IMG/VR virus record: IMGVR_UViG_3300036761_000594
Location: 1 to 34,157 of that record
DNA from: a virus
Direction: 5' to 3' (one strand)
Length of the DNA stretch: 34,157 nt
The number at the start of each line of letters is the position of its first letter. The stretch's first letter is position 1. Below are positions 3,748-31,203 of this stretch, piece by piece. The notes beneath the pieces are model-generated. The model worked only from the letters and a program-made list of their open reading frames with translations, did not search any database and was not told the DNA's origin. Position numbers and translations under genes: made by a program.

Positions 3748-4749
3748 TTATTTTATAAAATTTCCGTTTATTAATAATGTTCGTAAAACATTTTTATCTT
3801 TAATGTTATTTGCCGATGAGAATTCTCTAAAATTAACTTTATTATCTTTTTTAATGTGTGAATAGTTTCTATTTATTTTAAGCCTAGGTAAGATCACATA
3901 ATAGTTTTCATTAAACACATAAGAATTTATAGACTCATCTTCGGAAATTAATACCTCATGAATTTTTTCACCTTCTCTTGCTCCTATTTCTTCAATAGTA
4001 GTAGATTCATTACCATAATAATCAATTAATGCTCCTGCCAGATCTTTAATATAAAAAGATGGCATATTCATCACATATGTTTCACCGCCAACACTATTTT
4101 CCGCCGCTTGGAATATTAAATCCATTGCTTCTTTAAATGACAAGAAAAATCTCGTCATTTTACTATCTGTAATAGTGAGTTTATTCGTTGTTTTAATTTG
4201 ATCAATAAAATATGGCACGACGCTTCCATTTGACCCCAAAACATTGCCAGCCCTGATACAAACGAAATCAGTATGATTTGTTATCATATTTGCTTGTATT
4301 GTGAGTTTTTCTCCGACGGATTTGGTCATTCCATACATATTACTAGGGGCAACAGCCTTATCTGAGGAAACATCAATGAATTTTTTTACATTATGTTTGA
4401 CTGCAGAATTGATCAAATTGATAGTACCGTTGATGTTTGTTTTAATAGCTTCCTGTGGCTGGTTCTCACATATTGGTACATGTTTGAGGGCGGCCAAATG
4501 AAAGACATAATCGATGTTATTGTAATTAAATAATCTATCAACAGCGTCGGCATCACGGATATCACCAATGACATATTCAATAATATCATTATTAAATTTT
4601 CTCTGCATAGCCACCTGCGCAATTTCTCCTCTAGAATAGATTATAATCTTTTTAGCGTTTCTTTTTAACAATTGTTTAGTCAATTCGTTCCCCCATGAGC
4701 CCGAACCGCCTGTGCAGAGTATGGTCTCCCCTTTAAAAGAATTGTCCAT
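3748..4749 (-). CDS. UDP-GlcNAc 4,6-dehydratase family (CapE/FnlA/PseB-like SDR)
   Basis: Extended short-chain dehydrogenase of 333 residues. The NAD(P)-binding loop is GGSGSWG (14-20), followed by IGDIRD (61-66), HLAALKHVP (84-92) and the active-site block SSDKAVAPSNMYGMTK (128-143), with Y139 and K143 as the YxxxK pair and D130-K131 as in inverting UDP-GlcNAc 4,6-dehydratases. The product would be a UDP-4-keto-6-deoxy-hexosamine. The start codon overlaps the stop of the upstream 2-epimerase gene by one nt (TAATG). The pair CapE-like plus CapG-like points to UDP-FucNAc or a related sugar. PseB and CapE/FnlA cannot be separated by eye. Confidence 0.88.
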   Translation of the reverse strand: MDNSFKGETILCTGGSGSWGNELTKQLLKRNAKKIIIYSRGEIAQVAMQRKFNNDIIEYVIGDIRDADAVDRLFNYNNIDYVFHLAALKHVPICENQPQEAIKTNINGTINLINSAVKHNVKKFIDVSSDKAVAPSNMYGMTKSVGEKLTIQANMITNHTDFVCIRAGNVLGSNGSVVPYFIDQIKTTNKLTITDSKMTRFFLSFKEAMDLIFQAAENSVGGETYVMNMPSFYIKDLAGALIDYYGNESTTIEEIGAREGEKIHEVLISEDESINSYVFNENYYVILPRLKINRNYSHIKKDNKVNFREFSSANNIKDKNVLRTLLINGNFIK

Positions 4750-5882
4750 TATTGATCTTTTCCTAAAATATAATTAACTACTCGATCTGAAACATTTAAA
4801 TCATTATATCCCTGCGGTGGCTCCCAATTTCTTTTTTTTATATACATTAATTTAAAACAATCGAGTATAGATTCAGCATTTATTCCTGAAATAATAGCTC
4901 CACCAGCTTCGACAACCTCTGGCCTTTCTGTTTCGTTCCTAACAATTACACATGGAACTTTTAAAAGGCAATATTCTTCACAACAGAGCCCAGAATCGGT
5001 CAATCCCACTCTTGCGTTTTGTTCTAACTTAACGAAATCGAAAAATCCAAAAGCGTCAAGAAATTTAATATTCTTATGAGGTGGAACATTACAGGATTTC
5101 ATTTTATCTTTTGTCTTCGGATGTACGCTACATATGATAGGCATAGGATAGAGCTCAGCAATGAGATTCAGACCTTTTAAGATTTCTTCGAGTCTATCAA
5201 TATGATTTACATTTTCTGATCGATGAATATCAACGAGAACATATGGCGCTGGTGGATCAACAACGCCAGGCCAATCGTGGGGCATTAATCCCAGATCGTG
5301 GAGTATTCGACTTTCATTAATTTTTTGTTTATAGTATTCAAGTACTTCTAATGTTGGATTTCCACATTGGAATATCCTTTTTGGGTTTGCGCCTTCACGT
5401 AATAGAGTGTGACGGTTGGTATCTGTATAGAATAGGTTATAAGTACAAATACTGTCCAGTAATTTCCTATTAACCTCTTCAGGGATCTCATGGTTGAATG
5501 ACCTGTTGGCGGCTTCCATATGATATACGGGAATACCCATCCTCTCGGCAATAATCGCACATAACGCACTATTGGTATCCCCCAATATAAAAACCTTATC
5601 TGGTTTGATATCTTTAAAAATCTTTTCGATCTGAGGAAACATATCAGCTAATTGAACACCTAATCCAAATTCTGTATGAGTATTACCATCGTTCATACTT
5701 GTATGTAAAACAATATCTGGCGAGCGTAATCCGAGCTGATCAAAAAATATGTCTTTAAGATTAGATGTAAAATTTTGATTGGTGTGGACAACGGTATTTT
5801 GGCAAGCCGCGTCTAGTTTAGGTAAAATTCGTGAAAGCCTTATAATTTCAGGCCGCGTGCCGATAATAGTAATTAATTTCAT
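4749..5882 (-). CDS. UDP-sugar 2-epimerase, FnlC/CapG type (WecB fold)
   Basis: A 377-residue non-hydrolysing UDP-sugar 2-epimerase. Motifs: GTRPE (8-12), HTNQNF (33-38, HTGQN in most relatives), GDTNSAL (101-107), HMEAANRSF (121-129), PEEVNRK (134-140) and DIHRSENVN near 218-226. The HMEA-NR-F and PEE-NRK pattern resembles FnlC/CapG, which epimerises C2 of the 6-deoxy-talosamine intermediate, more than WecB (HVEAGLR). It is coupled by TAATG to the 4,6-dehydratase. No dedicated CapF/FnlB reductase with a cupin tail was seen, so the C4 reduction would have to come from another SDR in the island. Confidence 0.87.
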   Translation of the reverse strand: MKLITIIGTRPEIIRLSRILPKLDAACQNTVVHTNQNFTSNLKDIFFDQLGLRSPDIVLHTSMNDGNTHTEFGLGVQLADMFPQIEKIFKDIKPDKVFILGDTNSALCAIIAERMGIPVYHMEAANRSFNHEIPEEVNRKLLDSICTYNLFYTDTNRHTLLREGANPKRIFQCGNPTLEVLEYYKQKINESRILHDLGLMPHDWPGVVDPPAPYVLVDIHRSENVNHIDRLEEILKGLNLIAELYPMPIICSVHPKTKDKMKSCNVPPHKNIKFLDAFGFFDFVKLEQNARVGLTDSGLCCEEYCLLKVPCVIVRNETERPEVVEAGGAIISGINAESILDCFKLMYIKKRNWEPPQGYNDLNVSDRVVNYILGKDQ

Positions 5883-5894
5883 AATACATATTTT

Positions 5895-6524
5895 TTAGTT
5901 TCTAATTATTTTTCCTCTTCTTTGTTTTGCTTTTATGGACATCAACACTTTTGTTTCTTCTGAATGGTTCTTCCCTAACATTGGTGGAATTTGTCTTTTT
6001 CTTGATTCGATCATCTTTAATCTGGTTTCTATTGATCTTTTTTTCCCTCGGTGTGATGCCCCGTTTTTCTCACATGTTTCCTTTGATGGGTTTGGACGTT
6101 TATGCCGAGACTCTGTCATTCTTGTTATTGTTTCAGGAGATGGGGAAATCCCCTTATTCCAAGCTTGCTTTCCTTTATTAGACTCACTTACTCTTTTTTT
6201 GGTATACTCAGGGCAAATATGTCCTTGATTACTATCTGCTCGATGGTTAATATTAAACCACGGATGTAATGTATCAATATAATATTGCTCTCTTTGTATA
6301 AGAGATTCTTTGTTATATGAAGTTAACTCTAAAATTTCAAAAATCAAATCGCCGATTCCATATTTATTATAATGACATTGAAGTTTTGGCGAATGGTGTT
6401 TATTTCTTTTTAATTTATTTCGATGCCCCGTAAATCGAAATGGAATATGGACAGAGCTTCCAATATAAATTCTTTCAGGATGAATTTTGCTTTGTATTTT
6501 ATAAATACCTGATTGTTTTTCCAT
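5895..6524 (-). CDS. GIY-YIG homing endonuclease with NUMOD3 repeats
   Basis: A 209-residue endonuclease. N-terminal GIY (6-8) and YIG (20-22) are intact, with the catalytic-type R in the following helix, an E in LIQREQYYIDTLHP and N in FNINHRAD. The C-terminal half repeats the basic NUMOD3 motif: ESNKGKQAWNKGISP, GKKRSIETRLKMIES and GKNHSEETKVLMS. It interrupts the sugar operon between the 2-epimerase (12-nt gap) and the GT25 gene (29-nt gap) without disrupting either. Confidence 0.9.
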   Translation of the reverse strand: MEKQSGIYKIQSKIHPERIYIGSSVHIPFRFTGHRNKLKRNKHHSPKLQCHYNKYGIGDLIFEILELTSYNKESLIQREQYYIDTLHPWFNINHRADSNQGHICPEYTKKRVSESNKGKQAWNKGISPSPETITRMTESRHKRPNPSKETCEKNGASHRGKKRSIETRLKMIESRKRQIPPMLGKNHSEETKVLMSIKAKQRRGKIIRN

Positions 6525-7613: not shown

Positions 7614-8555
7614 TTATATGTTACGATAGTTTGATGTTATTTTTAAGAGCGGAATTGTTTTTATTAATTCTTTCAAACCATCTTCAATTGATATTGTTGT
7701 GGAATATCCGAGTTGATTTATCTTATCATAACAAACAACATAGTTTCTCCTGTCAGCGTCTTCACCAATATCCGCATAACTAATGTATGTTTTAGGAACA
7801 TATTCTTTAATTAATTCACAGACATCTTTTTTGGAGAAATTCATTTTATCTGAGCCAACATTGAATATGTTGTTCTTAAATTTATCCTGATTATTAATTG
7901 CGGTTATAAATGATTTTCCCATATCTCTAACATGTATAAATGTTCTCATAAAATGGGATTCATAAACAACAGCATATCCGTCCAATATACATTTATATGT
8001 TAAGTCATTTATTAATAAATCTAATCTCATACGAGGAGAAATTCCAAACGCCGTGGCGAATCTGAAAGCAGTTGTGTTATCTCTATTCATAACAAGATGT
8101 TCTGCAAGTGTTTTTGTTCTACCATATGTTGATAGGGGATTTAATGGGGTTTCTTCTGTACAAATTTCTTCTACATTCCCATAATTAGACCCCGTTGAAC
8201 TATATATTAGATATTGTTCGGGTGCCATATACCTCATTAATATCTCAGTACCTTCAACATTTACGGAATATGATTCTGATTCACCCATTTTCACACAAAG
8301 TGGATATCCCACATATGCTGCTAAATGAATTACAATATCTTTTCCCTTAAGCGATTCTGATATCTTTTTTTCATCACGAATATCACCATAGATAAAATTA
8401 AAATTGGGATTGGTGACATATGGTATTAATGTATCACCATTATTGAAAAATAAGGAGTCGTATACTGTTACATTAAATCCCTCATTTAATAGTTGAGGAA
8501 TTAAACTCGTACCAACATAACCTGCGCCGCCAGTAATAAAAATGGATTTATTCAT
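7614..8555 (-). CDS. NAD-dependent sugar epimerase/reductase (extended SDR)
   Basis: A 313-residue extended SDR. Rossmann loop GGAGYVG (9-15), IYGDIRD (55-61), HLAAYVGYP (77-85), SSTGSNYG (119-126) and YGRTK (144-148, catalytic Y and K). Closest in style to UDP-sugar 4-epimerases and dTDP/GDP-4-keto reductases. Because the island has a 4,6-dehydratase and a 2-epimerase but no CapF/FnlB, this enzyme is one candidate for the missing C4 reduction; that is inference. It lacks the cupin tail of CapF. Confidence 0.82.
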   Translation of the reverse strand: MNKSIFITGGAGYVGTSLIPQLLNEGFNVTVYDSLFFNNGDTLIPYVTNPNFNFIYGDIRDEKKISESLKGKDIVIHLAAYVGYPLCVKMGESESYSVNVEGTEILMRYMAPEQYLIYSSTGSNYGNVEEICTEETPLNPLSTYGRTKTLAEHLVMNRDNTTAFRFATAFGISPRMRLDLLINDLTYKCILDGYAVVYESHFMRTFIHVRDMGKSFITAINNQDKFKNNIFNVGSDKMNFSKKDVCELIKEYVPKTYISYADIGEDADRRNYVVCYDKINQLGYSTTISIEDGLKELIKTIPLLKITSNYRNI

Positions 8556-9155: not shown

Positions 9156-9680
9156 TTATTTTTGTTTTAATTTTATTGCATTTTCCATTATTTTTTTACC
9201 GTTAATTTTTTTAACTAGAACGGCTGGATTACCTTTGTACACTCCCCATTCTTCAGTATCACCCATTAATAAACTCCCAGCGGCCAATAAAACACCTTTT
9301 CTTAGTATTGAATTTGGTAACACAATCGAATTCGTTCCTATATTAGAAAATTCTTCCATAATTACATTGCCCACAATTACTTTACCTCTAAATTCATCTG
9401 GTATTAGTGCCCCTCCAATTCCGCTATCATCAAATCTATCAGATCCACAAATTATTCTAGCCCCCGCCATTATATTATTAAATCCTTTAACAATCAATTT
9501 ACCATCTTTTCCGCCGATACAACTAACATGTGGTCCTATATGAACATAATCTCCAATTTCCAAAGCGGTTGTACAAAAAAATCCCCAATCGATTGCTACA
9601 TGATTACCGATATTTGTAAGCTTAGGTCTTTTAAATTTAGTCCATTCATCGATAAAAACATCATTTCCTGTGGTGTTCAT
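9156..9680 (-). CDS. Hexapeptide-repeat (left-handed beta-helix) acyltransferase
   Basis: A 174-residue acyltransferase of the WbbJ/LacA group. It has stepwise hexapeptide coils such as IGNHVAIDWG, IGDYVHIGPHVSCIGG, IMAGARIICGS and IGTNSIVLPNSILRKGVLLAAGSLL, ending with GVYKGNPAVLVK, the conserved end cap of sugar O- or N-acetyltransferases. Likely acetylates (or formylates) a sugar in the glycan. It abuts the methyltransferase (stop and start adjacent) and overlaps the GT10 gene by one nt. Confidence 0.87.
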   Translation of the reverse strand: MNTTGNDVFIDEWTKFKRPKLTNIGNHVAIDWGFFCTTALEIGDYVHIGPHVSCIGGKDGKLIVKGFNNIMAGARIICGSDRFDDSGIGGALIPDEFRGKVIVGNVIMEEFSNIGTNSIVLPNSILRKGVLLAAGSLLMGDTEEWGVYKGNPAVLVKKINGKKIMENAIKLKQK

Positions 9681-10492
9681 TATTTTATATAATTTAAATA
9701 AAAGAAATCTTCAGCGGTTAACATATTAATTGCTCGTTCATAATTTTCTTTAATATATTCCATTTTAGAATTATATAAATCTATAGATATGTCTTCTATT
9801 TTAAAATCATCTGTTAACATTATAATTCCATTTGGATTAAAAAATTTTCCAATTGTTGGCGTTCCCCAAAAAATAGGTATCGTACCTGTTGCAAAACAAT
9901 CGGTAATTTTTTCACAAAATATATTTGGATAGTTATCATTTTCCATTGCAATTGAAAAATAATAGTCATTAAGACCTTGTTCTTTAGTTTCGATAAAAGT
10001 ACTGCGTCCTGATCCAAAAAGATCAAGTTTATTTTGAAATTTTCCCGCTATCGATTGCCTATAATTATGACCTGGACACATTGTTTTAATGGAAGCTATC
10101 ATTGATATTAATTTTGTTTTTTTATGTATCCCTCTATCTTTAACCCAAGGAACAGCATTAGGTATTACTAATCTCATTTTATTTGACATATTAAGTAATC
10201 GTTCATCATGCGTGAAAATTAACTCATATTTTTTTTCTATCTCTGATATGTTTTGGGATATATGCTGAATTAAATGTGGAATAATCGCTGACGATTCCAG
10301 AATCAACGCATAATTCTTTTTTAAATTATTTACTTGCCAGAATATACCATCATCAACATGAATTGAGATGTCTCCAGAATGTGTGGTTTTATCCCATTCC
10401 ACATATTTGGGAATACTACCGTGCGATGAACATATGTCATGCTGAAATCCGCCACCTATCATATTTAGTTTAATTTTTTCCATAATTACCAT
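9680..10492 (-). CDS. GT10 fucosyltransferase-like protein
   Basis: A 270-residue protein with the alpha-1,3-fucosyltransferase signature: FSIAMENDNYPN (E184, N185), FCEKITDCFATGTIPIFWG (E194, K195, PIFWG 206-210) and FFNPNGIIML. Those residues bind GDP-fucose in GT10 enzymes. The acceptor is unknown. A second ATG three codons in (10483) would leave a 2-nt gap from the DegT stop and is an equally good start. The nearby Gmd and Fcl-like genes would supply the GDP-fucose donor. Confidence 0.85.
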   Translation of the reverse strand: MVIMEKIKLNMIGGGFQHDICSSHGSIPKYVEWDKTTHSGDISIHVDDGIFWQVNNLKKNYALILESSAIIPHLIQHISQNISEIEKKYELIFTHDERLLNMSNKMRLVIPNAVPWVKDRGIHKKTKLISMIASIKTMCPGHNYRQSIAGKFQNKLDLFGSGRSTFIETKEQGLNDYYFSIAMENDNYPNIFCEKITDCFATGTIPIFWGTPTIGKFFNPNGIIMLTDDFKIEDISIDLYNSKMEYIKENYERAINMLTAEDFFYLNYIK

Positions 10493-11583
10493 CCGTTTTT
10501 TATTGTTTCTATGACATAATTAACATCCTCATTAGTTAAGTCATAATTAATTGGTATGTTTATTTGTGTTGAATCAAATTTTCTTTGATTAACTAATTTA
10601 TTATTAATTCCACCAAAAATATCGTTTTTATCTATACCCATATGTACTACACTACATTCAATTCCCGAATTTCGTAATTTTTTGACGAAGTTTCTTCTAT
10701 CTTTAACATGAAAACCATATAGCCAGTATGCTGATGTTCTATCATTCTTATAATTAAATAATTGTATCCCATCTATATTAGAAAGATTTTTATTATATAC
10801 CTCAGCAATATTTCTTATTCTTTTCATCTTCTCATCAAATATTTTCAGATTAAAAATTCCAAAAGTTGCCGCGATATCATTCATATGGTATTTATATCCA
10901 TAGTTTTGTAAATTATATTCTCTTTCACCTAACTCCCCAGCCATATCTAAGTCCCTATCAATACCAAACCATCTTAATTTTTTTAATTTACGCTCATTTT
11001 CTTTAGTTAATGAACAAACAGCCCCACCATCTCCCGTCGTAAGATGTTTTATTGATTGAAATGAGAAACATGTGTAATCTGAAATACTTCCGATAGGTCT
11101 ATCTTTATAATTAGATCCAATCGCATGGGCGGCATCTTCAATTACGATGAGATTATGTTTTTTGGCTATTGATGTTATTTCATCCATATCACATGGATAA
11201 CCGCCCCAATGAATAATCAATATTACCCTTGTTTTATTTGTTATTTTTTCTTCTATTTTTGTCACATCAATATTACCTGTTTCATATGAAATATCAACAA
11301 AAATTGGTTTTGCTTTCTGATATAAAATAGATAATCCTGTTGCTATGAAAGTTTGTGCTGTTGTAATTATTTCATCACCCTCTTTTACTCCAGCATTTAC
11401 CAATGCTAAATGTAATGCTGATGTTCCACTATTTACAGTCACTGGATTTATCAATCCTAATTGTTTATTTAATAATGATTCAAACAAATCTACTCTTTTG
11501 CCCGCGGAAATTAATCCACTATCTATTAATTCAGATAAACCACTTTTTATATCATTATTTAATGTTGTACTAAACAATTTCAT
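10486..11583 (-). CDS. DegT/DnrJ/EryC1 PLP-dependent sugar aminotransferase
   Basis: A 365-residue aminotransferase. Visible motifs: NSGTSALHLA (51-60, phosphate binding), VIEDAAHAIGS (147-157, D150 to the pyridine N) and CFSFQSIKHLTTGDGG (172-187) with the Schiff-base lysine K179. Substrates would be a nucleotide keto-sugar and an amino donor such as glutamate. With Gmd nearby, GDP-perosamine-type amination at C4 is the first guess, but a 3-amino product or a UDP-linked substrate is possible. It overlaps the Fcl-like gene by 4 nt (ATGA). Confidence 0.9.
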   Translation of the reverse strand: MKLFSTTLNNDIKSGLSELIDSGLISAGKRVDLFESLLNKQLGLINPVTVNSGTSALHLALVNAGVKEGDEIITTAQTFIATGLSILYQKAKPIFVDISYETGNIDVTKIEEKITNKTRVILIIHWGGYPCDMDEITSIAKKHNLIVIEDAAHAIGSNYKDRPIGSISDYTCFSFQSIKHLTTGDGGAVCSLTKENERKLKKLRWFGIDRDLDMAGELGEREYNLQNYGYKYHMNDIAATFGIFNLKIFDEKMKRIRNIAEVYNKNLSNIDGIQLFNYKNDRTSAYWLYGFHVKDRRNFVKKLRNSGIECSVVHMGIDKNDIFGGINNKLVNQRKFDSTQINIPINYDLTNEDVNYVIETIKNGW

Positions 11584-12509
11584 AATAATTTTTTATAATA
11601 TTCTATTGTATTACTAATTCCATCTTCATAACTTGTGAAGTCAAAATTAGGAAAATATTTATTGAACAATTTAGATCCAAGTATTTTTGTGGGTGCTCCA
11701 TCCATCTTAGTTGTATCGAAAATAATTTTCACATTATAATTTAACATTTTTTTTATTAATAGTACAGAGTCTTTTATTGAAATACCACTTTCTTGTCCGA
11801 GATTTATTGGGTTAGGGATATCGTAATACTCATTATCGATTATATGTTTGATGATTCTACAAGTATCTGGCATATATATCCATTCCCTTATGGGCGATCC
11901 TGTTCCCCATACTACAAATTCTTCATCATTGTTTTTCATAGATTGTATCATTCTCATAATAATACCACTCATAGCATGTGTTTTTGACGCATCAATATGA
12001 TCATTTTCTCCATAAGAGTTCGGGAGTATTAAATTTATGGTTCTAATTCCATATTGTTTCTTATAACATTCTGATATGTTAAATGAAAATTTCTTTGGAG
12101 CTCCATATGATTCGATTGAAGTGTGTACCGCTCCATTCCACCATTGATCTTCATCTTGTATATCGATGTCGCCTGGATATGAACAATTAGATATTGGATT
12201 TATTATTAATATCTTTTTATTAACTTCACGTACGGCATTATAAAGGTTTAAATACATTTGAGTATTATCAAATATAATGTCAGCCGAATATTCATTTACA
12301 TAATTTATAGAACCAACATGTGCCGCGGCATAAATAATAATATCGGGATCTGTTTTACTTATCACCGATTTCAATTGAGTAGGATTCATAAGATCACATC
12401 CTGTTCTGCGACTTTCATTAAATATTATATAGTTATCATCATTCGCAAATGCAACATTTAGGTTTTGTCCCATAAACCCAAAACCACCTATTATTAAAAT
12501 TCTTTTCAT
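11580..12509 (-). CDS. GDP-L-fucose synthase-like epimerase/reductase (Fcl/WcaG)
   Basis: A 309-residue SDR from the ATG at 12509 (an upstream ATG at 12530 would overlap gmd by 17 nt). Motifs: GGFGFMG (8-14), AAAHVGS (61-67), NCSYPG (108-113), YGAPK (135-139), GTGSPIREWIYMPD and DTTKMDGAPTK, which parallels the DTTKPDGTPRK end signature of GDP-4-keto-6-deoxymannose 3,5-epimerase-4-reductase. It lies 4 nt after gmd, the normal order of a GDP-fucose pair. ColC, which makes GDP-colitose, belongs to the same family, so product identity depends on the ColD neighbour. Confidence 0.85.
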   Translation of the reverse strand: MKRILIIGGFGFMGQNLNVAFANDDNYIIFNESRRTGCDLMNPTQLKSVISKTDPDIIIYAAAHVGSINYVNEYSADIIFDNTQMYLNLYNAVREVNKKILIINPISNCSYPGDIDIQDEDQWWNGAVHTSIESYGAPKKFSFNISECYKKQYGIRTINLILPNSYGENDHIDASKTHAMSGIIMRMIQSMKNNDEEFVVWGTGSPIREWIYMPDTCRIIKHIIDNEYYDIPNPINLGQESGISIKDSVLLIKKMLNYNVKIIFDTTKMDGAPTKILGSKLFNKYFPNFDFTSYEDGISNTIEYYKKLL

Positions 12510-12513
12510 ATTT

Positions 12514-13569
12514 TTATTTTTTAAATTCATTCTTCATCATTATTTTAACCAATTCTTTGAACTTTGTTTTTGCTTCCCACCCTAATTTTTCTTTAGCTTT
12601 AGATGGATCACCTAAAAGTAAATCAACTTCAGCGGGTCTATAATATATTTCATCAATACCGATTATTAATTTATCTTCATGCATATCCCATAATATGGAT
12701 CTTTCATTTTCATCCCATTTCCATTGAAATCTTGGATTATTTTTTCTTGGAGAACCAATATGAGTTTTAAAATCCCAATTATGCTCAGGTAAATGTAAAA
12801 TACATTCATCAATAAATTCTTTAATTGTGTGCGTTTCTCCAGTTGCTAAAATAAAATCTTCAGGTTTATTCTGTTGTAACATTAGCCACATACCTTCTAC
12901 GAAATCAGGAGAATAACCCCAATCTCTTTTTGACATTAAATTTCCAAGATAAAATGGTTTTCCAGTTTTAATATATTTTACAAAACCTTCAGTTATCTTT
13001 TTAGTGACAAAAGTTGATCCTCTTCTTTCACTTTCATGATTAAATAGAATTCCATTGACGGTAAACATCCCATATGCTTCTCTGTAATTTTTTACAATCC
13101 AGTACGCATAAAGTTTAGCTATCCCATATGGGGATCTAGGATAAAACGGAGTTGTTTCCTTTTGAGGAGTTTCTTGAACCTTACCGAATAATTCTGATGT
13201 TGATGCATTATAAAATCTAGCATTGGGTGCGTGTTTTCTCATAGCTTCCAACATATTAAGAGTCCCAATAGCGTCAGTTTGGGCGGTATATCCTGGAACC
13301 TCAAATGAAATTTTAACATGGGATTGCGCTCCCAGATGATAAATTTCGTCTGGTTTGACAGTAAACATAATGTGATCAATCGAAAGAGCATCGGTGACAT
13401 CTCCATAGAGTATTGTTATCTTATCAATAATATGGTCGATTCTTTTAGTGTTAAATGATGATGATCGCCTTTTAATTCCATATACATCATAACCTTTATT
13501 TAATAATAATTCAGCCAGGTAACTACCGTCCTGCCCCGTAATTCCTGATATTAGCGCTTTCATTTTCAT
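12514..13569 (-). CDS. gmd: GDP-mannose 4,6-dehydratase
   Basis: A 351-residue Gmd. The whole family signature is present: [13 protein letters not shown] (8-20), [13 protein letters not shown] (78-90), [10 protein letters not shown] (121-130), YGIAK (148-152), FNHESERRG (176-184) and [14 protein letters not shown]. It converts GDP-D-mannose to GDP-4-keto-6-deoxy-D-mannose, the common precursor of fucose, colitose, perosamine and rhamnose. Overlaps the next gene by 4 nt. No gene for making GDP-mannose itself was seen, so the donor would come from the host or elsewhere in the genome. Confidence 0.96.
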
Positions 13570-14309
13570 AATCTATGTATTTTTGTGAATGTCTTTGAAA
13601 AAATAATTGATGTATCCGCAAGACTAGATATTCTACATAAAAACTGATTACATTTGGAGAGGAGAAGAACCTCTTTAATGGCTTCTTCCCAAAAAATTTT
13701 ATTTTGTAAATTTGTGTGCATTGGAGATTCATCAAAATTACTTTTTTTCCCTCTAATCATATTAGGCGAAAAAATCATTTGATGTCCAAAATGGGAGCGT
13801 AAAATGTTCAATGATTCATCATTATCTGAGGCAACAAAGATTTTATTAATATTTTCTGTGTTAATTATTTTGTTTATTTTATTTATATAGTCATTGTTAT
13901 AAAATACTCCGTGTTGCGGATGACGGTGATTCATATCCCCAAGGCGAATATGTACTCCAAGACAATTTTCATTAATTTCTTGAGAATTATTTTCAACCCA
14001 ATCTAATATGTTTTTTTGAATTTTTATTTTTGAGCATATTAATTTTAATTTTCCAAAATCATCAGATCTTTCTATTACCCCCAATTCACTTGGATTATAT
14101 AACCCATTATAAATTTCATCACCTTGTATAAAAGAGTCATCATAATATTGATCAAATATCCAATCGAAAGGGTTTTCTTTCATAACATTATTTTTTGAAT
14201 CAATGTAAATATTATCAATATCATAAGGAAGCCCACAACGAATAATTCTCAAGAATCTGGCAAATATTCCGGGGCATATAGGATGATAGAAATGAAGTTT
14301 AAGGTTCAT
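13566..14309 (-). CDS. Fucosyltransferase-like protein (GT23/O-FucT fold)
   Basis: A 247-residue soluble protein. The key block is [19 protein letters not shown] followed by [21 protein letters not shown], which parallels the VHxRxxDK and FVASDD elements of alpha-1,6- and protein-O-fucosyltransferases, and a C-terminal SSLADTSII resembling the end of the donor-binding domain. Not close enough to name the linkage. It overlaps gmd by 4 nt and the ColD-like gene by 11 nt, placing it in the GDP-deoxysugar branch. Confidence 0.65.
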
Positions 14310-15480
14310 ATTTAATTGAGTTATTAACTATTTTCGAAATTCTTATGATATCTTTTTCAGTTAGATCAGGATTATTTGGAATATATAACCCATAATCATG
14401 AACAACATCAGCAAAGTCCAATCCTGTTTGTTTTCCATAAAGATCGGTGAAGAATGGCTGACGGCCAATAGAACCACATACTAATGGCCTACAATCAATA
14501 TTGTTTTCTTGTAAATTTTTAACGATTATATTTATGTTTTTATGTATAATTGGATACGCAAAATTTGATATTTCTATATTACGATCCATTTTTATTTTCC
14601 ATTCATCGTTTATTATCAACTTATCATAAAATAAAAAATTATTTTTTCTTTTTTCTATAACGGAATCTAATTTTTCTAATTGTAATAACCCTATTTTGGC
14701 TTGTAAATCTGTGGATCTTAAATTAAATCCAGGATAATAAAAAGTATATAAAGCTTTAAATTCATCGACATTATATTTTTCTCTTAGATCTTTTCTTGTT
14801 TTATGATCTAAATCTCTGTCCCATCCATGACTTCTTATAGAAAGTAGAATATTATAAATTTCATCATCATCTGTAGATATCAATCCACCTTCAATAGTTG
14901 AAAAATGATGTCCATAATACATGCTAAAAGCACTCATCAATCCGAAATTTCCTGTCTTAACTCCTTTATAAGTGGATCCTACGCTTTCACAAGAATCTTC
15001 CAATAAAATCACATCATTTTCACCACATAGTTTTATTATTTCGTCCATTTTACCTGGGAATCCAAGAATATGAACTATCATTAATGCTGACGGCTTATGC
15101 TCGTGGATTAATTTTCTTAGATGATCAATATCAACGCCTAATGTATCAGTATCCGCATCGCAGAGAATCGGTTCTAATCCTAGTTGAATTATCGGTGCAA
15201 CTGTTGTTACCCAAGATACCGAAGGAACAATAATTTTTTTGTTCTTTAATCTCTGAGATAACATTAACGCATAAATCATAAGTAAATTTGCGGATGACCC
15301 TGAATTAACAAATAAAGAATGTTTTCTACCTAGCCAGTTTGACCATTTATTTTCAAATTCTATAGTTAATTTACCTTTAGTTAATTGTTCATTTTTCTTT
15401 AACCATTTTACAAGTTCGGCGATGTCTTTTTTACTTATGGCGTCTTTAACTAGTGATATTTTTTTCGTGTTTGTTATCAT
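14299..15480 (-). CDS. colD: GDP-4-keto-6-deoxymannose 3-dehydratase, ColD-like
   Basis: A 393-residue DegT-fold PLP enzyme in which the usual Schiff-base lysine is replaced: the motif is GHHFSTIEGG (190-199), so H191 stands where Kxx-TTGEGG is expected. This histidine is the known hallmark of ColD and of the related CDP-sugar dehydrase RfbH. EDSCESVGS (161-169) supplies the PLP-binding aspartate, NSGSSANL (59-66) the phosphate site and RSHGWDRD the conserved C-terminal loop. ColD removes the C3 hydroxyl of GDP-4-keto-6-deoxymannose, giving the 3,6-dideoxy-4-keto sugar. RfbH-like activity is less likely because the substrate-making gene here is Gmd and no iron-sulfur cysteines were seen. Confidence 0.8.
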   Translation of the reverse strand: MITNTKKISLVKDAISKKDIAELVKWLKKNEQLTKGKLTIEFENKWSNWLGRKHSLFVNSGSSANLLMIYALMLSQRLKNKKIIVPSVSWVTTVAPIIQLGLEPILCDADTDTLGVDIDHLRKLIHEHKPSALMIVHILGFPGKMDEIIKLCGENDVILLEDSCESVGSTYKGVKTGNFGLMSAFSMYYGHHFSTIEGGLISTDDDEIYNILLSIRSHGWDRDLDHKTRKDLREKYNVDEFKALYTFYYPGFNLRSTDLQAKIGLLQLEKLDSVIEKRKNNFLFYDKLIINDEWKIKMDRNIEISNFAYPIIHKNINIIVKNLQENNIDCRPLVCGSIGRQPFFTDLYGKQTGLDFADVVHDYGLYIPNNPDLTEKDIIRISKIVNNSIKYEP

Positions 15481-16478
15481 GATTCATATAGTTTTTTTTG
15501 CCAATTAATTGTGGATATCAGACCTTCATTTATAACCACAAAATTGGTTTTATTAAATTCCTCTAAATATCTATCAATACATATGTTAACTATTTGAGGA
15601 CTTCCATTTATTTCTTTACTAATTAATGGGATTTCTATATTTTTATCAAATATCTTTCCAATGTCTCGTGCTAATTCTCGAATTGTAAATGATTCCGTAC
15701 CTCCAACATTATAGGTTGTCTTTTTACCATATAATCCTATATTCATTATCATTTCAATAACATCTGTTACATATGCATATGTTCTTATTGATTCTCCACT
15801 ATCTAATAATTTAATGGTTGGATTTTTTATCGCTTTTTCTATTAATGAGTTGACTACTCTAGTATCTCCTTTTTTTGTTCCGGGGCCGTAAGTCAAACTA
15901 ACTCTTACTATTTTTGCGTTTATACCTTGTTCTATATATGTGTGACATATTGCTTCTCCACATTTCTTTCCTTCAATATAACATGCTCTTGGGTGATCGG
16001 GGGTTGTGTTTCCAATTTCTTCTTCAGGAATGTCATATTCGTCCAGACCATCATATATTTCACTACTACTTACAAATAGAAAAGTACCGTCTTTCTTTAA
16101 TTTCTCAAATAACCATATTGTTGATACTGTGTTTATCTCTATTGTTTTTATTTTATCTATTAAAAATTTGGCTGGCTGTCCATATCCTGATGAGTGGATG
16201 ATATAATCGAGTTGTGGGATATCTTTATACATAGATTTATCGGTTATATCTCCTGTTATCAATACGCAATTTTCAAATAATGGAGCAAATATCGGATCTA
16301 TAGAATTTTTAGTCCACACATAGATCGTTATATTATATTTTTCTTGTTGAGATTTGATATATGATAACAAATATACTCCAAGTAACCCAGATGCCCCAGT
16401 AATAAGTATGGATTTATTCTTTAGTTTTGATAGATCAATATCTATTTTTTTAAGGTCTTCATTTATAATGTTCAACAT
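15477..16478 (-). CDS. Extended SDR, sugar reductase/epimerase or decarboxylase-like
   Basis: A 333-residue SDR from the ATG at 16478, which is 2 nt after the stop of the E1-beta-like gene (an upstream ATG at 16508 would overlap it by 28 nt). GASGLLG (28-34), GDITD (76-80), SSSEIYDG (137-144) and YIEGKK (167-172, YxxxK) are visible, with RTYAYVTDV and YNVGG later. It resembles UDP-glucuronate decarboxylase/epimerase-type SDRs. It sits between the ThDP enzyme and ColD, so it could reduce the keto group of the branched or dideoxy sugar; this is inference. Overlaps ColD by 4 nt. Confidence 0.83.
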   Translation of the reverse strand: MLNIINEDLKKIDIDLSKLKNKSILITGASGLLGVYLLSYIKSQQEKYNITIYVWTKNSIDPIFAPLFENCVLITGDITDKSMYKDIPQLDYIIHSSGYGQPAKFLIDKIKTIEINTVSTIWLFEKLKKDGTFLFVSSSEIYDGLDEYDIPEEEIGNTTPDHPRACYIEGKKCGEAICHTYIEQGINAKIVRVSLTYGPGTKKGDTRVVNSLIEKAIKNPTIKLLDSGESIRTYAYVTDVIEMIMNIGLYGKKTTYNVGGTESFTIRELARDIGKIFDKNIEIPLISKEINGSPQIVNICIDRYLEEFNKTNFVVINEGLISTINWQKKLYES

Positions 16479-16480
16479 AT

Positions 16481-17011
16481 CTATTTTTCGTTGTAATAAT
16501 CTCCCCACTCTACTAAAATGGTTGATTTATTATCTGTTCTTTCATATGCATATCTATAATAATCAAAGATTTGGTTAGGTTCATCTAATCTCATTATATC
16601 AACATTCTTACATAAGAGTCTAAACCCTTCGGTAAAATCATCTATATGTTGATAGCTTGGATGAAGGGGTCTTTGAGATCCGATAGCGGTTCTTATTATT
16701 ATTTTGGATTTATAATCGGACATTTGGTTAACCTTATCAATATGATTAACTAATTGATTCGTTGCCAGTATCAAAAAATTCCATCTTGGGAAAATAGAAA
16801 TTGGAACTCTACCATTTAATGACATTCCGAATGATATACCCATCTGCATATCCTCATTGACAGGCATTTCTAATAATTTATTTTTATCGATATCCGTAAG
16901 AGTATTTGTCATAGCGGTTCCAGCATATGTAACCGCTTGTCCCAAAAAAAATGTATCAGGTTGTTCACCTAACCAAGTCATAGCTCGTTTTAATTCATCA
17001 AAATATTTCAT
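16481..17011 (-). CDS. ThDP enzyme, E1-beta/transketolase pyrimidine-domain subunit
   Basis: A 176-residue protein matching the pyrimidine-binding domain of E1-beta/transketolase enzymes: MPVNEDMQMGISFGMSL (49-65) with E53 as the likely ThDP-activating glutamate, then FPRWNFLILATNQLVNHIDKV and RTAIGSQRPLHPSYQH. It lacks the C-terminal transketolase domain of full E1-beta proteins (about 325 residues). It is 2 nt downstream of the E1-alpha-like partner, so the two almost surely form one heteromeric enzyme. In sugar clusters such pairs (AviB1/AviB2 type) attach a two-carbon unit to a keto sugar. Confidence 0.82.
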   Translation of the reverse strand: MKYFDELKRAMTWLGEQPDTFFLGQAVTYAGTAMTNTLTDIDKNKLLEMPVNEDMQMGISFGMSLNGRVPISIFPRWNFLILATNQLVNHIDKVNQMSDYKSKIIIRTAIGSQRPLHPSYQHIDDFTEGFRLLCKNVDIMRLDEPNQIFDYYRYAYERTDNKSTILVEWGDYYNEK

Positions 17012-17013
17012 AA

Positions 17014-17610
17014 TTAAAATTGTATTCTAATTCCACTACCCGCGTGTGGATATTTGTTATTATATTGATAATAAATGATTTTTTCTGTCCATTCATAATA
17101 AGAATGATATTTTTTATTCCACACAACTTGTGTATCTGTGCAAACAGATTTATTATTATCTTCTATTATAAATGTGATTGGTAAATCGTGGTAAACAGCA
17201 TATTTGTGATTTTCATTAAATGTTCCTGTTTCTGCCGTCATATCTCCAACAAAACACCAAACATGATTTCCACTTTTCTTTAGTTTTTCATCGAGAGCCA
17301 CACCAACTGCGATTGGAATGTTACCCGTTACAATTGCTGAGGAATATATTTTATGAAAAGGATAGCATAATGAAATTGATTTACCATCTAGAATATCTTT
17401 TTTCAATGTTTCTCGATCAACTCCTTTCAATAGGCATTGATAATGAGATCTCCAATTACAAAATACCCAATCATTTTCTTGAATATTCTTAAATATTTCA
17501 AGCATTTCTTCTTCGTTGTTACTATACAAATGAATAGGGGCTTTTATTTTACCTGTGTTAAATAATTCACATATTTCATCTTCAAATGATATTAGATCTT
17601 CTTTTGTCAT
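17014..17610 (-). CDS. ThDP enzyme, E1-alpha/diphosphate-binding subunit
   Basis: A 198-residue protein with the ThDP/Mg signature: VGDMTAETG (121-129, GD 122-123) then, 28 residues on, DNN (151-153), the classic GD-(N)-NN spacing. Upstream, NWRSHYQ (52-58) recalls the substrate-channel HxxHx loop of 2-oxoacid dehydrogenase E1-alpha. It is shorter than full E1-alpha (about 360 residues), and no lipoyl or E2 partner is encoded nearby, so oxidative decarboxylation with E2 is unlikely. Forms a pair with 16481-17011. Stop and start are separated by 2 nt. Confidence 0.85.
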   Translation of the reverse strand: MTKEDLISFEDEICELFNTGKIKAPIHLYSNNEEEMLEIFKNIQENDWVFCNWRSHYQCLLKGVDRETLKKDILDGKSISLCYPFHKIYSSAIVTGNIPIAVGVALDEKLKKSGNHVWCFVGDMTAETGTFNENHKYAVYHDLPITFIIEDNNKSVCTDTQVVWNKKYHSYYEWTEKIIYYQYNNKYPHAGSGIRIQF

Positions 17611-17616
17611 TTGTCA

Positions 17617-18390
17617 TTATATTTTAATCCAATTATTGGGAATTAAATCTTTTATGTCCTCAATTCCTTCTCCCAACCATTTTTGAGGGGCTATAACTAT
17701 TCTATCATCGTATTGAGATAACCACGCACTCCACCAGCTAAATGAACTATTAGCTATTATGTGATGTTTCATTTTGCTCATCAAATATAACGAAATATAA
17801 TCAATTTCATCAATAAAAACAAATCTATCTCCAATAAAATTTTCTCTACACCATTGCATATCATCAGAAAAAACCAGGATTTTTAAATCGGTTGGTAACA
17901 GAGAGATAGCTTGATTATAATATATCATTGTTTGTGGTGGATGTATATCTGAATAATACTTAACATAATTCCCTCTCCGGACATGTAAACTTATGTTACC
18001 AAATAGATCTGAATATTGATTAATTTTATTGTTAAATTCGATTGGCGGACTAAATAATTTTATGATATCATTTCTTCTATGTTTAAAATATTTTTCACTT
18101 TGAAAATATCCAAAATATTCGTGTTCATTTTGGTATCGCATCGGAACATAAATAAATGGATATGATAGACCCGGTACTACAATGTTATTTTTATTGGGGA
18201 ATCTATTAAAAAGATACATATAATCTGCAGCATGTGGGGCATTCCATATTTCACCAGTCTGCATAGTCCTTATTTTTCCACCTATATCTAATAAACATAA
18301 TTCGTCATTATGATCTTTAGCTAATGACCAAACTGCTGCGATATGAAATAATGAGTTTCCTAAACCTCCGATAGGGTGAATGTAAATCAT
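17617..18390 (-). CDS. GT11 alpha-1,2-fucosyltransferase
   Basis: A 257-residue GT11 enzyme: HPIGGLGNSLFH (5-16), LHVRRGNYVKYY (135-146, the family's HIRRGDY with N for D), VFSDDMQWCRENF and ANSSFSWWSAWLS are the four conserved blocks that bind GDP-fucose. Ser and Trp content and spacing match WbsJ/FutC-type enzymes. Donor GDP-fucose would be made by Gmd and the Fcl-like protein. It is the second clear fucosyltransferase in the island. Confidence 0.93.
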   Translation of the reverse strand: MIYIHPIGGLGNSLFHIAAVWSLAKDHNDELCLLDIGGKIRTMQTGEIWNAPHAADYMYLFNRFPNKNNIVVPGLSYPFIYVPMRYQNEHEYFGYFQSEKYFKHRRNDIIKLFSPPIEFNNKINQYSDLFGNISLHVRRGNYVKYYSDIHPPQTMIYYNQAISLLPTDLKILVFSDDMQWCRENFIGDRFVFIDEIDYISLYLMSKMKHHIIANSSFSWWSAWLSQYDDRIVIAPQKWLGEGIEDIKDLIPNNWIKI

Positions 18391-18391
18391 A

Positions 18392-19642
18392 TTATATCCA
18401 AGTTTTTAAACCTTCTTTATTGTAGTTATCAATATCTTTTGTTACTAAATTTCGTAATTCAAAATATCTTTCTTTTGGTATTTTAGGACAGAAATAATTA
18501 TGGGGGCTCTGATGCGAAAATAAAGACATATTATAAGAGTCGTTAATTAATCCCATTGATTTAACTTCGTCATATAAATCTGTGCCAGGATATGGTGTAA
18601 AAAAACTTAAAGTAATTCTAAATGGTTTAAGGCTTTTTACAAATTCAACGGACTTAATAATTGATTCTTCTGTATCTCTGGGAAACCCTATTATCATATA
18701 TGCTTTCCATTCTATTGAATTACTATTCAATATTTCTGCGGCCCTTAAAAAATCATCTGTTGTTTCACCCTTCTTAACATATGCAAGAGTATTGTTATCT
18801 CCACTTTCCAGCCCTAAACTCATTTGTCCACATCCAGCCGCTTTCATCATTTTAACCATTTCGTCTGATATCGAATCTGCACGGGTATCACATCTCCAAT
18901 GAGCAGGAACATCGTATTTTGAACAAAATTCAGCGAGCCGTCTCTTATTGACTGTAAATGTTTCATCCCAAAATGTAAAATAATTAGATTTAAATCTTTC
19001 GTTCACATATTTCATTTCAGATATAATCCTATCAACGGATTTAAATGTAACTTTATGTTTCCACATTATTTTAGACGCGCAGAAAGTACACATAAATGGA
19101 CATCCTCTAGTTGATAATACATGACCATAACCATTTGGTGAGTATTTGTCCAATAGAATGTCATAATTCGGGAAAGGAATTTCATCTAAATTTTTAATTC
19201 TATTTCCATGTGATTCATATTCTCCACAAAAAACTTCTACTCCCTCTGGATATGCTGTTGGATCGGTTGAAGGGTGATTACCGCCAACAATAACAGGTAT
19301 TTTATATTCATTTGTGATCTCAATGATCTTCAATGCTGATAGATATTTAACATTAAGAACATTAATACCTATTTTATTAGGTTTAATTTCTTCTATTGTT
19401 TTACGTAATTCCGTCCATACTGGGTGATTTGGATCGTTAAGTGAGTTAATGTATATGTCATAGTGATCAGTTCTTTCGGAATATCCCGCATAGTGAGCAT
19501 TTTTACCAATTTCCATATTTTTAATAAAAACCTCGTCACCTTCGGCCACCATTTGTGTTCCAACAGCTAACAGGGAAAGCGGAACATAATCTTGTTCTAA
19601 CCCGATAAATCGATAAAATGGTGGATTAAATAATAGCGTCAT
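18392..19642 (-). CDS. Radical SAM protein with B12-binding-like N-terminus
   Basis: A 416-residue enzyme. The N-terminal 140 residues match a cobalamin-type Rossmann domain (VPLSLLAVGTQMV, IGINVLN, VIVGGNHPS), with the usual DxHxxG histidine not evident. The radical SAM cluster is STRGCPFMCTFCAS with C181, C185 and C188, and GLESGDNNTL and IIGFPRDT follow. Class B-like enzymes of this design perform C-methylations or other radical changes. In a sugar cluster it may C-methylate or deoxygenate a nucleotide sugar; the substrate is unknown. The start overlaps the GT2 gene by 4 nt. Confidence 0.88.
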   Translation of the reverse strand: MTLLFNPPFYRFIGLEQDYVPLSLLAVGTQMVAEGDEVFIKNMEIGKNAHYAGYSERTDHYDIYINSLNDPNHPVWTELRKTIEEIKPNKIGINVLNVKYLSALKIIEITNEYKIPVIVGGNHPSTDPTAYPEGVEVFCGEYESHGNRIKNLDEIPFPNYDILLDKYSPNGYGHVLSTRGCPFMCTFCASKIMWKHKVTFKSVDRIISEMKYVNERFKSNYFTFWDETFTVNKRRLAEFCSKYDVPAHWRCDTRADSISDEMVKMMKAAGCGQMSLGLESGDNNTLAYVKKGETTDDFLRAAEILNSNSIEWKAYMIIGFPRDTEESIIKSVEFVKSLKPFRITLSFFTPYPGTDLYDEVKSMGLINDSYNMSLFSHQSPHNYFCPKIPKERYFELRNLVTKDIDNYNKEGLKTWI

Positions 19643-28712: not shown

Positions 28713-29369
28713 CTAATTTAAAAAAATAAATTGTTCGTTATTAATCGGCTTCGATTTGTAGATATATCTTCTGACAGTTGCTTTTCTAACTCCTATTTCC
28801 TGAGAACACTCTTTAATTGTTTCCCATATTTTTCCATCACTTACTCGTAATACCTTTTTACTCATTCCGTGATGTCTATTTTTCAATCCATTATAATATT
28901 TTGATGATCCTTTTATTTTTATTGAATGTTCCAATTTTTGTTCATCGGTAAATTTTGGCCGAGGTTTATTATTTTCAAATGTATATCCAAGATTTTTCAT
29001 ACTAATACCTTTATTCCATGGAATGTGTCCAATTTTTGCTCCTTGGTTCTTTTTTTCTTCTGCGGATTTCATACTTATTGTATCTCCACCGTCTCCGCCC
29101 ATTGTCATATTATATCCGTTTTTAATCGAATCATACTTTTTTATGAAAAAAATTTCTAATTCATTTAATTCATTAATGTCCGAACATTTAATTAATTCTT
29201 CCCATAAAAAAGCATCATTACCGTACTTTTTAAAAGCCGAATAAAGATGCGTTTTTTTACCATATCGGAATCTTTTTAAATGCGTTTTCTTTCTTTCATT
29301 TAAAGATTTAGTTGTTTTTCCAATATAAATCTTGCCATTTATTGTATTAGTAATTTTGTAAATTATCAT
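28713..29369 (-). CDS. GIY-YIG homing endonuclease
   Basis: A 218-residue endonuclease. IYKI (3-6) and YIGKTTKSLNERKK (15-28) give an intact GIY-YIG core with its arginine, ELEIFFIKKYDSI the catalytic glutamate helix, and NMTMGGDGGD (GGDGGD shared with 1043-1741) the linker. The C-terminal part has a NUMOD-like segment GAKIGHIPWNKG and a helix-turn-helix ETIKECSQEIGVRKATVRRYI. It lies between two small genes as a single-gene insertion with its own TATTTATAT motif. Confidence 0.92.
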   Translation of the reverse strand: MIIYKITNTINGKIYIGKTTKSLNERKKTHLKRFRYGKKTHLYSAFKKYGNDAFLWEELIKCSDINELNELEIFFIKKYDSIKNGYNMTMGGDGGDTISMKSAEEKKNQGAKIGHIPWNKGISMKNLGYTFENNKPRPKFTDEQKLEHSIKIKGSSKYYNGLKNRHHGMSKKVLRVSDGKIWETIKECSQEIGVRKATVRRYIYKSKPINNEQFIFLN

Positions 29370-30114: not shown

Positions 30115-31203
30115 TTATTTATCAAATCGTCTTCGGGCGGCCTCCGTAACAAACACATATTGGGCGACACCTATAAAGTCGTCCAATTTTTTTGCGTTGC
30201 AATAGCTCATGGCTGACTTGAGATAATCTCTAAAGTTTTCTGTCCATTGTTCTAAAGTATATTCAACATTCTGATATTTGGTAATACCTTCGGCAGTTAC
30301 TAATTCAGACTTACCCCAACTTCTCTGAACAGCTTTAGTACTCATACCACGATATTTCTTTTTGACTGGAAATCCCCATCTCCATAGAGTTTCTGCTGTC
30401 TTTAGGGGTATTTTTATACCATAAAGATAGTTAAACCCAGCGGATTCGATTGCTTTATTAAATGTAGAACCAATCATTACGAAATCGGCGCCGAGAGCGA
30501 GAGCTTTAATGATATCAGAATAGTTTCTCATTCCGCCATCCGCAACTATCTTAGTATTACAAAGTTTTCCATATTGTTGTCTAGCTTTACGACATTCTTC
30601 AATTAGTGACCCCATAGGATAATTAATTGAGACATTTGCAGCTGTTGTGCATCCTGCTCCTGTTCCAATTGATACTCTAACATAATCGGCCCCAGCTAGC
30701 CCAAGATTAACAAAAGTTTCGGGATTTGCTACGTTTCCAACCATTAAATTTATATCTGGCCATCTTTTTTTAATTTCTTTGACGATATCAACAAGTTTAT
30801 TCATATGTCCATTTGCGGTGTCAATAAGAACATTCGGGAAATTGAAAAAGGAACGCCAAGTAAATGAAACATCGTCATCTAATGACGATAATATCCGATC
30901 AATGTCATTTAATCGATTTTCAATTTCGCATAATCCAAAAGATTGAAAATATTGTTCTTTATTAAAAAGCGGATATGTTTCAGTATTAATATTTCTTCTT
31001 GGTAAACACGGAATAATTCCATATGTAATAAAATCTTTATGATTGTTATTTGATACAACAGTATCCATTGGCGCCGCCATCAATGGAAGAGTTCTCAATC
31101 CATTAAATTCTGAAGTCACATTACAGCAACTTCTACTTTCGACATCGCTTCCTTCAGCAGGAACAATTACAATGTCATCCAAATCAAATTTTAAATTATT
31201 CAT
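30115..31203 (-). CDS. GMP reductase / IMP dehydrogenase family enzyme
   Basis: A 362-residue TIM-barrel enzyme without CBS domains. LMAAPMDTVVS (41-51), LIDTANGH (126-133), MVGNVANPET, the flexible catalytic loop GTGAGCTT (180-187, nucleophile C185), ADGGMRNYSDI and IGSTFNKA are visible. RGMSTKAVQRSWG in place of the IMPDH YRGMGS flap, and the size, favour GMP reductase. It would convert GMP to IMP or IMP to XMP, altering the purine pool during infection. A -7-like TATATTTG precedes the gene. Confidence 0.85.
   Translation of the reverse strand: MNNLKFDLDDIVIVPAEGSDVESRSCCNVTSEFNGLRTLPLMAAPMDTVVSNNNHKDFITYGIIPCLPRRNINTETYPLFNKEQYFQSFGLCEIENRLNDIDRILSSLDDDVSFTWRSFFNFPNVLIDTANGHMNKLVDIVKEIKKRWPDINLMVGNVANPETFVNLGLAGADYVRVSIGTGAGCTTAANVSINYPMGSLIEECRKARQQYGKLCNTKIVADGGMRNYSDIIKALALGADFVMIGSTFNKAIESAGFNYLYGIKIPLKTAETLWRWGFPVKKKYRGMSTKAVQRSWGKSELVTAEGITKYQNVEYTLEQWTENFRDYLKSAMSYCNAKKLDDFIGVAQYVFVTEAARRRFDK

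Follow-up and report, generated by a model that had tools for sequence, protein, structure and literature searches.

Two-subunit E1-like enzymes have been proposed to branch keto sugars by attaching an acetyl group (PMC4753412, PMC10338323, PMC12247030), a role that is backed by feeding, knockout or in vitro work in the cases of aldgamycin and kibdelomycin (PMC12247030, PMC4753412, PMC10338323), and YerE, the enzyme of yersiniose, has a single chain and belongs to the flavoproteins of the decarboxylase/acetolactate-synthase type (PMC4753412, PMC12247030). Here we analysed IMG/VR virus record IMGVR_UViG_3300036761_000594 (label G000), the whole of which, 34,157 bases, we call the window, and in it a pair of small genes, ThA and ThB, whose products are predicted to form a half-size two-subunit enzyme of the E1 type dependent on thiamine diphosphate (ThDP). 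We put at about even (a probability of roughly 0.5) the reading that ThA/ThB are a minimal ThDP carboligase which, together with a ColD-type enzyme, would make a carbon-branched deoxy sugar by transferring a two-carbon unit to a keto sugar. As read from the open reading frames (ORFs), the four genes concerned are near-abutting on the minus strand at 14299-17610, and a short-chain dehydrogenase/reductase (SDR) and the ThDP pair lie immediately upstream of the ColD-like gene, as a preliminary description of this DNA had placed them:

17014..17610, minus strand: ThA, half-size E1-alpha-like pyrophosphate-domain (PP) subunit of a ThDP enzyme, 198 aa (PF00676, 44 bits)
16481..17011, minus strand: ThB, E1-beta-like pyrimidine-domain (PYR) subunit without the transketolase C-domain, 176 aa (PF02779, 30.6 bits; no PF02780)
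15477..16478, minus strand: extended SDR, UXS/RmlB-like (2b69, 1.5e-32)
14299..15480, minus strand: ColD-like sugar 3-dehydratase dependent on pyridoxamine phosphate (PMP), with His191 at the position of the pyridoxal phosphate (PLP) lysine (2gms, 8e-70)

The listed GTG start would extend the SDR to 15477-16508, and the ATG at 16478, right behind the ThB stop, is the likelier start. The order ThA-ThB-SDR-ColD was found again in four other viral records (L018, L019, L028 and L032), where the remaining sugar genes are partly different.

Analysis of sequence and predicted structure pointed in both chains to E1-type enzymes. PF00676 was aligned to ThA over model positions 7-170 of 300, and the AlphaFold models had a pLDDT of 95 for ThA and 95 for ThB. 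When compared by Foldseek, the ThA model matched human pyruvate dehydrogenase (PDH) E1-alpha with TMq 0.83-0.85 and the ThB model matched E1-beta with TMq 0.84-0.87, the closest matches of both being the E1-alpha/E1-beta subunits of pyruvate and branched-chain (BCKDH) dehydrogenases. The ThA sequence profile matched E1-alpha (1ni4_A) at 6e-17, against 0.033 for the best transketolase and 7.8e-4 for the N-chain of a split transketolase, and the ThB profile matched E1-beta and not any transketolase. The ThDP motif was slightly misdescribed as intact in the preliminary description, because in ThA it reads G122-D123-M...E-D-N152-N153, with Met in place of the third Gly of the standard GDG...NN; its remaining part stands, N152 (in register with the ENN of E1-alpha) and G122 being invariant in the relatives and D123 present in at least 90% of them. 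The activating Glu claimed for ThB, E53 in the alignment to human PDH, is likewise invariant in 41 relatives, as are H122, which aligns with the His of the E1-beta 'QHS', and Q121; R76 and H90 of ThB are invariant residues specific to the family. Each chain is about half the size of a usual E1 chain, and nearly all relatives are of similar length, with the exception of cyanophage fusions and a few extended ORFs. Family searches of the window ORFs identified no E2 or lipoyl gene, which agrees with the earlier claim of a pair lacking both a transketolase C-domain and an E2 partner.

The pair is not a chance combination, because about 160 viral and about 160 bacterial relatives exist: a scan yielded 164 from viral contigs and 163 from genome contigs, from which the best 80 of each were kept, these sets being non-random and including near-duplicates. 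T4-like capsid genes exceeded the family cut-off in five of the 20 viral records tested, that of L018 included, which supports at least those five being phages. Piscinibacter defluvii SH-1 and Spirulina sp. CCY15215 are among the cultured bacteria that carry the cassette. Could ThA/ThB simply be what is left of a common 2-oxoacid dehydrogenase, one for pyruvate, acetoin or branched-chain substrates, given that their closest solved relatives are PDH and BCKDH E1 subunits? Family members scored at least about 200 bits with the profile and other E1-alpha proteins at most 112 bits, and in a quick maximum-likelihood tree the family occupied one side of a branch of length 1.55 with 99% SH-aLRT. This tree carries a long-branch warning and its fine placements (the window ThA groups with L018, L028 and L032) are unsure, the separation of the family resting also on the score gap. 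Clustering with ordinary 2-oxoacid dehydrogenases, which had been set beforehand as grounds for abandoning the proposal, was hence not what we found; with no E2 identified and the catalytic residues strictly conserved, we reject that identity, and the remnant explanation keeps next to no probability. Among the E1-alpha chains that the tree covered, the family is also separate from the AcoA-type and the actinobacterial ones. A search for AviB-like relatives in 300 genomes of Actinomycetota, the phylum of L164, gave family-level scores only in L164's own genome and at most 65 bits in the rest.

Fused homologues of ThA/ThB occur in the cyanophages P-TIM68 and S-SM2, and ThA matches the N half and ThB the C half of phrog_34187, annotated "unknown function", so the half-size ThDP family is so far without a phage annotation. 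A search of plasmids gave no ThB match and only distant E1-alpha matches, a DNA-level search of phages gave no match, and we found no paper linking phages with ThDP-branched sugars. The view that such a pathway is not known in any phage thus holds for the chemistry and fails for the genes, which are common in phages. In some Pelagibacter loci (L107, L121, L136, L153 and L154) a second, larger E1-alpha/E1-beta-like pair adjoins ThA just upstream. In 76 ThA loci (for example L014:6464-8005) the surroundings of ThA/ThB include a radical SAM protein with B12 binding, some 514 aa long, and the window encodes at 18392-19642 a shorter one that is only distantly similar to it.

The second line of evidence concerns the dehydratase. 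The ColD-like protein has the features of a ColD PMP-dependent 3-dehydratase: among PDB entries it is closest to E. coli ColD, it lacks the Fe-S cysteines that the CDP-type dehydratase E1 has in a C-x-C...C segment, and His191, rightly taken before as the ColD hallmark, aligns with the first active-site His of ColD, which stands in for the PLP lysine. For each locus we typed the DegT lying closest to ThA on the same strand, up to 8 kb away, and it was of the His type in 55/55 viral and 69/69 bacterial loci having one, the K-type being found in none; 26 viral loci (including the window's own short locus, L001) and 11 bacterial loci had no DegT in this range, in some cases because the contig ends. 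In a control of 12 bacterial genomes the ThA-linked DegT was of the His type in 12/12 (for L280 and L285 the linkage was deduced from contigs of matching length), and of the unlinked ones 41 were K, 4 were H and 1 was S, a further one being a non-hit. In the DegT tree, the window ColD belongs to a clade (support 99) with L018, L028, L052 and L097, all of them ThA loci, and this clade is separate both from the viral ColDs of Gmd loci and from that of E. coli. The ThA-linked His-type DegTs are spread over several separate lineages of this tree, and therefore the link formed more than once or was reshuffled. These results support the prediction that the ThDP pair works with a ColD-type 3-dehydratase, which would lead to two-carbon transfer onto a 4-keto-3-deoxy nucleotide sugar.

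Several observations weigh against this coupling. Viral loci that have GDP-mannose 4,6-dehydratase (Gmd) and no ThA also carry His-type DegT (42/42), which makes the association weaker evidence in viruses than in bacteria; we therefore set aside the His type as a signal in viruses alone and rest the argument on the bacterial control. The complete cyanophages P-TIM68 and S-SM2 have the fused homologue and no DegT at all, and ThA occurred without DegT in 17/20 further viral records searched, of up to 183 kb, which may be fragments. Finally, bacterial cassettes add heptose-type genes that would suit an earlier step too: of the 80 bacterial loci kept, 56 have an HddA-like GHMP kinase, 31 an HddC-like guanylyltransferase and 8 a SIS isomerase. 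In such a scenario ThA/ThB would be a split mini-transketolase whose product, a heptulose or octulose phosphate, enters a nucleotide-heptose route at an early stage, with ColD and the SDRs acting later on the heptose, and the cyanophage fusions, whose neighbours are by annotation a sugar kinase, a nucleotidyltransferase and a phosphoheptose isomerase (and which lie near a Zn-alcohol dehydrogenase), are in keeping with it. The preference of both profiles for E1 over transketolase, the linkage with 3-dehydratases, and the viral loci, which mostly lack the kinase and the guanylyltransferase, make this explanation unlikely, although it deserves some weight.

Around the four genes the window holds further sugar genes:

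17617..18390, minus strand: GT11 glycosyltransferase, directly upstream of ThA (PF01531, 69.8 bits)
13566..14309, minus strand: possible glycosyltransferase, 247 aa (PF01531 below cut-off, E 0.0098)
12514..13569, minus strand: Gmd (TIGR01472, 466.6 bits; cut-off 415)
11580..12530, minus strand: GDP-fucose-synthase-like (Fcl-like) SDR with YxxxK present (NF047922, 153.9 bits, under the cut-off of 500)
10486..11583, minus strand: K-type DegT aminotransferase that keeps the PLP lysine, with Lys at the H191 position (PF01041, 307 bits)
9680..10492, minus strand: GT10 glycosyltransferase (PF00852)
7614..8555, minus strand: SDR3, a homologue of the SDR commonest near ThA/ThB elsewhere (100 loci)

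A weak homologue of the 13566..14309 protein lies upstream of ThA in L018 and L032 (phmmer, 50-60 bits). No structural phage gene was identified among the window ORFs scanned, the phage signs in the window being homing endonucleases and a phage-type glycosyltransferase. Homing-endonuclease-like genes (GIY-YIG/NUMOD3, NUMOD1) are dispersed in the glycan region at 5895-6524, 28713-29369, 33312-34067 and 1043-1741, Polysacc_synt_2 SDR and UDP-GlcNAc 2-epimerase-like genes at 3748-5882 possibly form a UDP-FucNAc-type route, and an IMP dehydrogenase/GMP reductase-like gene lies at 30115-31203. Viral contigs that lack the ThDP pair commonly carry Gmd together with a His-type DegT, and frequently an Fcl-like gene as well, in cassettes resembling those for GDP-colitose (L166-L222).

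The presence of Gmd, ColD and the Fcl-like SDR in one window raises the question of whether these make ordinary GDP-colitose, ThA/ThB carrying out an unrelated step. The same Gmd-Fcl-ColD set without ThA is common in viral contigs, being present also in cyanophage ACG-2014f, and fucosyltransferase-like glycosyltransferases are close by. Set against this, the clade of the window ColD contains ThA-linked members only, and the order ThA-ThB-SDR-ColD repeats in records where Gmd was not found, so we regard GDP-colitose as quite unlikely. The window Gmd is a true family member by NCBIfam; a comparable one was not found in L018, L019, L028 and L032, which are fragments and for which a host Gmd could be the source. 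In the viral loci an RmlC-like epimerase is present in 48, and the accessory genes differ between bacterial and viral cassettes, from which it follows that the acceptor probably varies. The GDP-linked yersiniose named in the preliminary description was not supported as the identity of the product, no Gmd having been found in the syntenic viral records (fragments) and the bacterial cassettes carrying heptose-type genes; GDP may or may not be the carrier, and this sugar is just one candidate product.

The SDR between ThB and ColD had been assigned the role of branch reductase, and this was the part of the proposed Gmd-ColD-ThDP-SDR pathway that was not supported, the coupling of the ThDP pair to a ColD-type enzyme being the part that stood as a prediction, through the exclusive His type beside ThA/ThB and the ThA-linked ColD clade. 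Its nearest solved relatives are UDP-glucuronate decarboxylases (2b69), and it keeps a dehydratase-type site, S-S-S-E-x-Y (S-S-E; D in L164) with YxxxK, compared with T-S-E in Gmd and S-N-C in the Fcl-like SDR of the same window. The Arg equivalent to ArnA R619 is used for recognising decarboxylases (PMC10338323), and it is replaced in the window SDR and in all six homologues aligned. Because S-S-E/YxxxK is kept and this Arg is absent, we read the SDR, with moderate confidence, as a putative 4-keto-forming dehydratase or epimerase and not a branch reductase, bearing in mind that the fine function of extended SDRs is not readable from sequence (PMC10338323). A glucuronate decarboxylase yielding a 4-keto-pentose like EvdS6 is weakened as a candidate by the loss of the diagnostic Arg, but EvdS6 R279A still gave keto product. 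Some Fcl-like SDRs near ThA (L008:7033-7989, L063:11604-12575 and relatives) have an altered YxxxK, for example GWMKR, which suggests that their redox role may have changed or been lost.

The sequence itself shows the fold, the catalytic residues, the active site of the SDR and the coupling of the pair to dehydratases of the His type; beyond these, we infer the donor, the acceptor, the site of attack, the nucleotide, the finished sugar and its place of attachment. Gmd and/or the dehydratase-like SDR would supply a 4-keto-6-deoxy nucleotide sugar, from which the ColD-like PMP enzyme would strip the C3 hydroxyl. ThA, as the pyrophosphate domain, and ThB, as the pyrimidine domain, of a two-subunit carboligase without an E2 partner would then put an activated two-carbon unit, for which pyruvate is the likeliest source, on the ring ketone, yielding the C-branched deoxy sugar. 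Completion of the branch may fall to the Fcl-like SDR or to the aminotransferase, and GT11, GT10 and other neighbouring transferases would link the sugar to a surface glycan. Hydroxypyruvate or some longer 2-oxo acid could conceivably take the place of pyruvate as the donor, since YerE-like enzymes such as ErwE take other 2-oxo acids and split transketolases have been proposed to move hydroxyacetyl units to keto sugars (PMC12247030), and the invariant R76 and H90 of ThB could mark a different substrate. As two-carbon branches appear to be the speciality of the two-subunit E1-type enzymes under review, and KbDH is limited to pyruvate, we consider another donor very unlikely.

Taking the carboligase reading to the whole family, cassettes of the ThDP pair with a ColD-type enzyme, found in more than 100 phage and bacterial sugar gene clusters, probably build unusual branched sugars for cell-surface decoration. 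Tentatively, and at less than even odds, these half-size heteromers may constitute an unnamed widespread family (phages; Nitrospira, Pelagibacter, SAR116) dedicated to carbon-branching deoxy-keto nucleotide sugars (among them derivatives of heptose, whose branched products would have nine carbons), with which phages would remodel surface glycans. If true, a common unannotated gene pair would acquire a testable function, branched-sugar ThDP chemistry would reach beyond antibiotic clusters to the surface glycans of viruses and of the environment, and tertiary alcohols could be made with a natural carboligase of very small size.

Compared with known systems, the nearest in domain content is phrog_34187 (P-TIM68, S-SM2), a PP-PYR protein whose two halves correspond to ThA and ThB, which differs in being fused and in its heptose-type surroundings in genomes without DegT. 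UXS, EvdS6 and ArnA share with the window SDR the YxxxK and a Ser/Thr-Ser-Glu-type site, whereas the R619-type Arg is missing in the latter and its aligned homologues. E. coli ColD (GDP-colitose) has the same fold family, His for the PLP lysine and no Fe-S cysteine cluster, yet the window ColD stands in a phylogenetically separate ThA-linked clade and its substrate is a predicted one. YerE and YerE-like enzymes resemble ThA/ThB in the chemistry predicted for the pair, which would move two carbons to a 3,6-dideoxy-4-keto sugar carried on a nucleotide; in contrast to the single-chain flavoproteins of the acetohydroxyacid synthase type, ThA/ThB are two chains whose best matches, by sequence as well as by fold, are of the E1 type, and YerE is no relative by architecture. 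AviB1/B2-type enzymes are likewise separate chains akin to pyruvate dehydrogenase E1 that are encoded among deoxy-sugar genes and carry out no oxidative decarboxylation. ThA/ThB share with two-subunit E1-type (alpha-KADH2) enzymes the PP domain with GD...N in one chain and the PYR domain with Glu in the other, and we do not count them as members because the full-length alpha and beta chains and the transketolase C-domain are missing. By analogy, ThA/ThB would work like the two-subunit branching enzymes as a minimal AviB1/B2-like variant, set apart, where the known enzymes are compared by description, by chains of about half the usual E1 length, by a ThB without the C-domain, and by their tie to 3-dehydratases of the His type in the polysaccharide loci of phages and bacteria.

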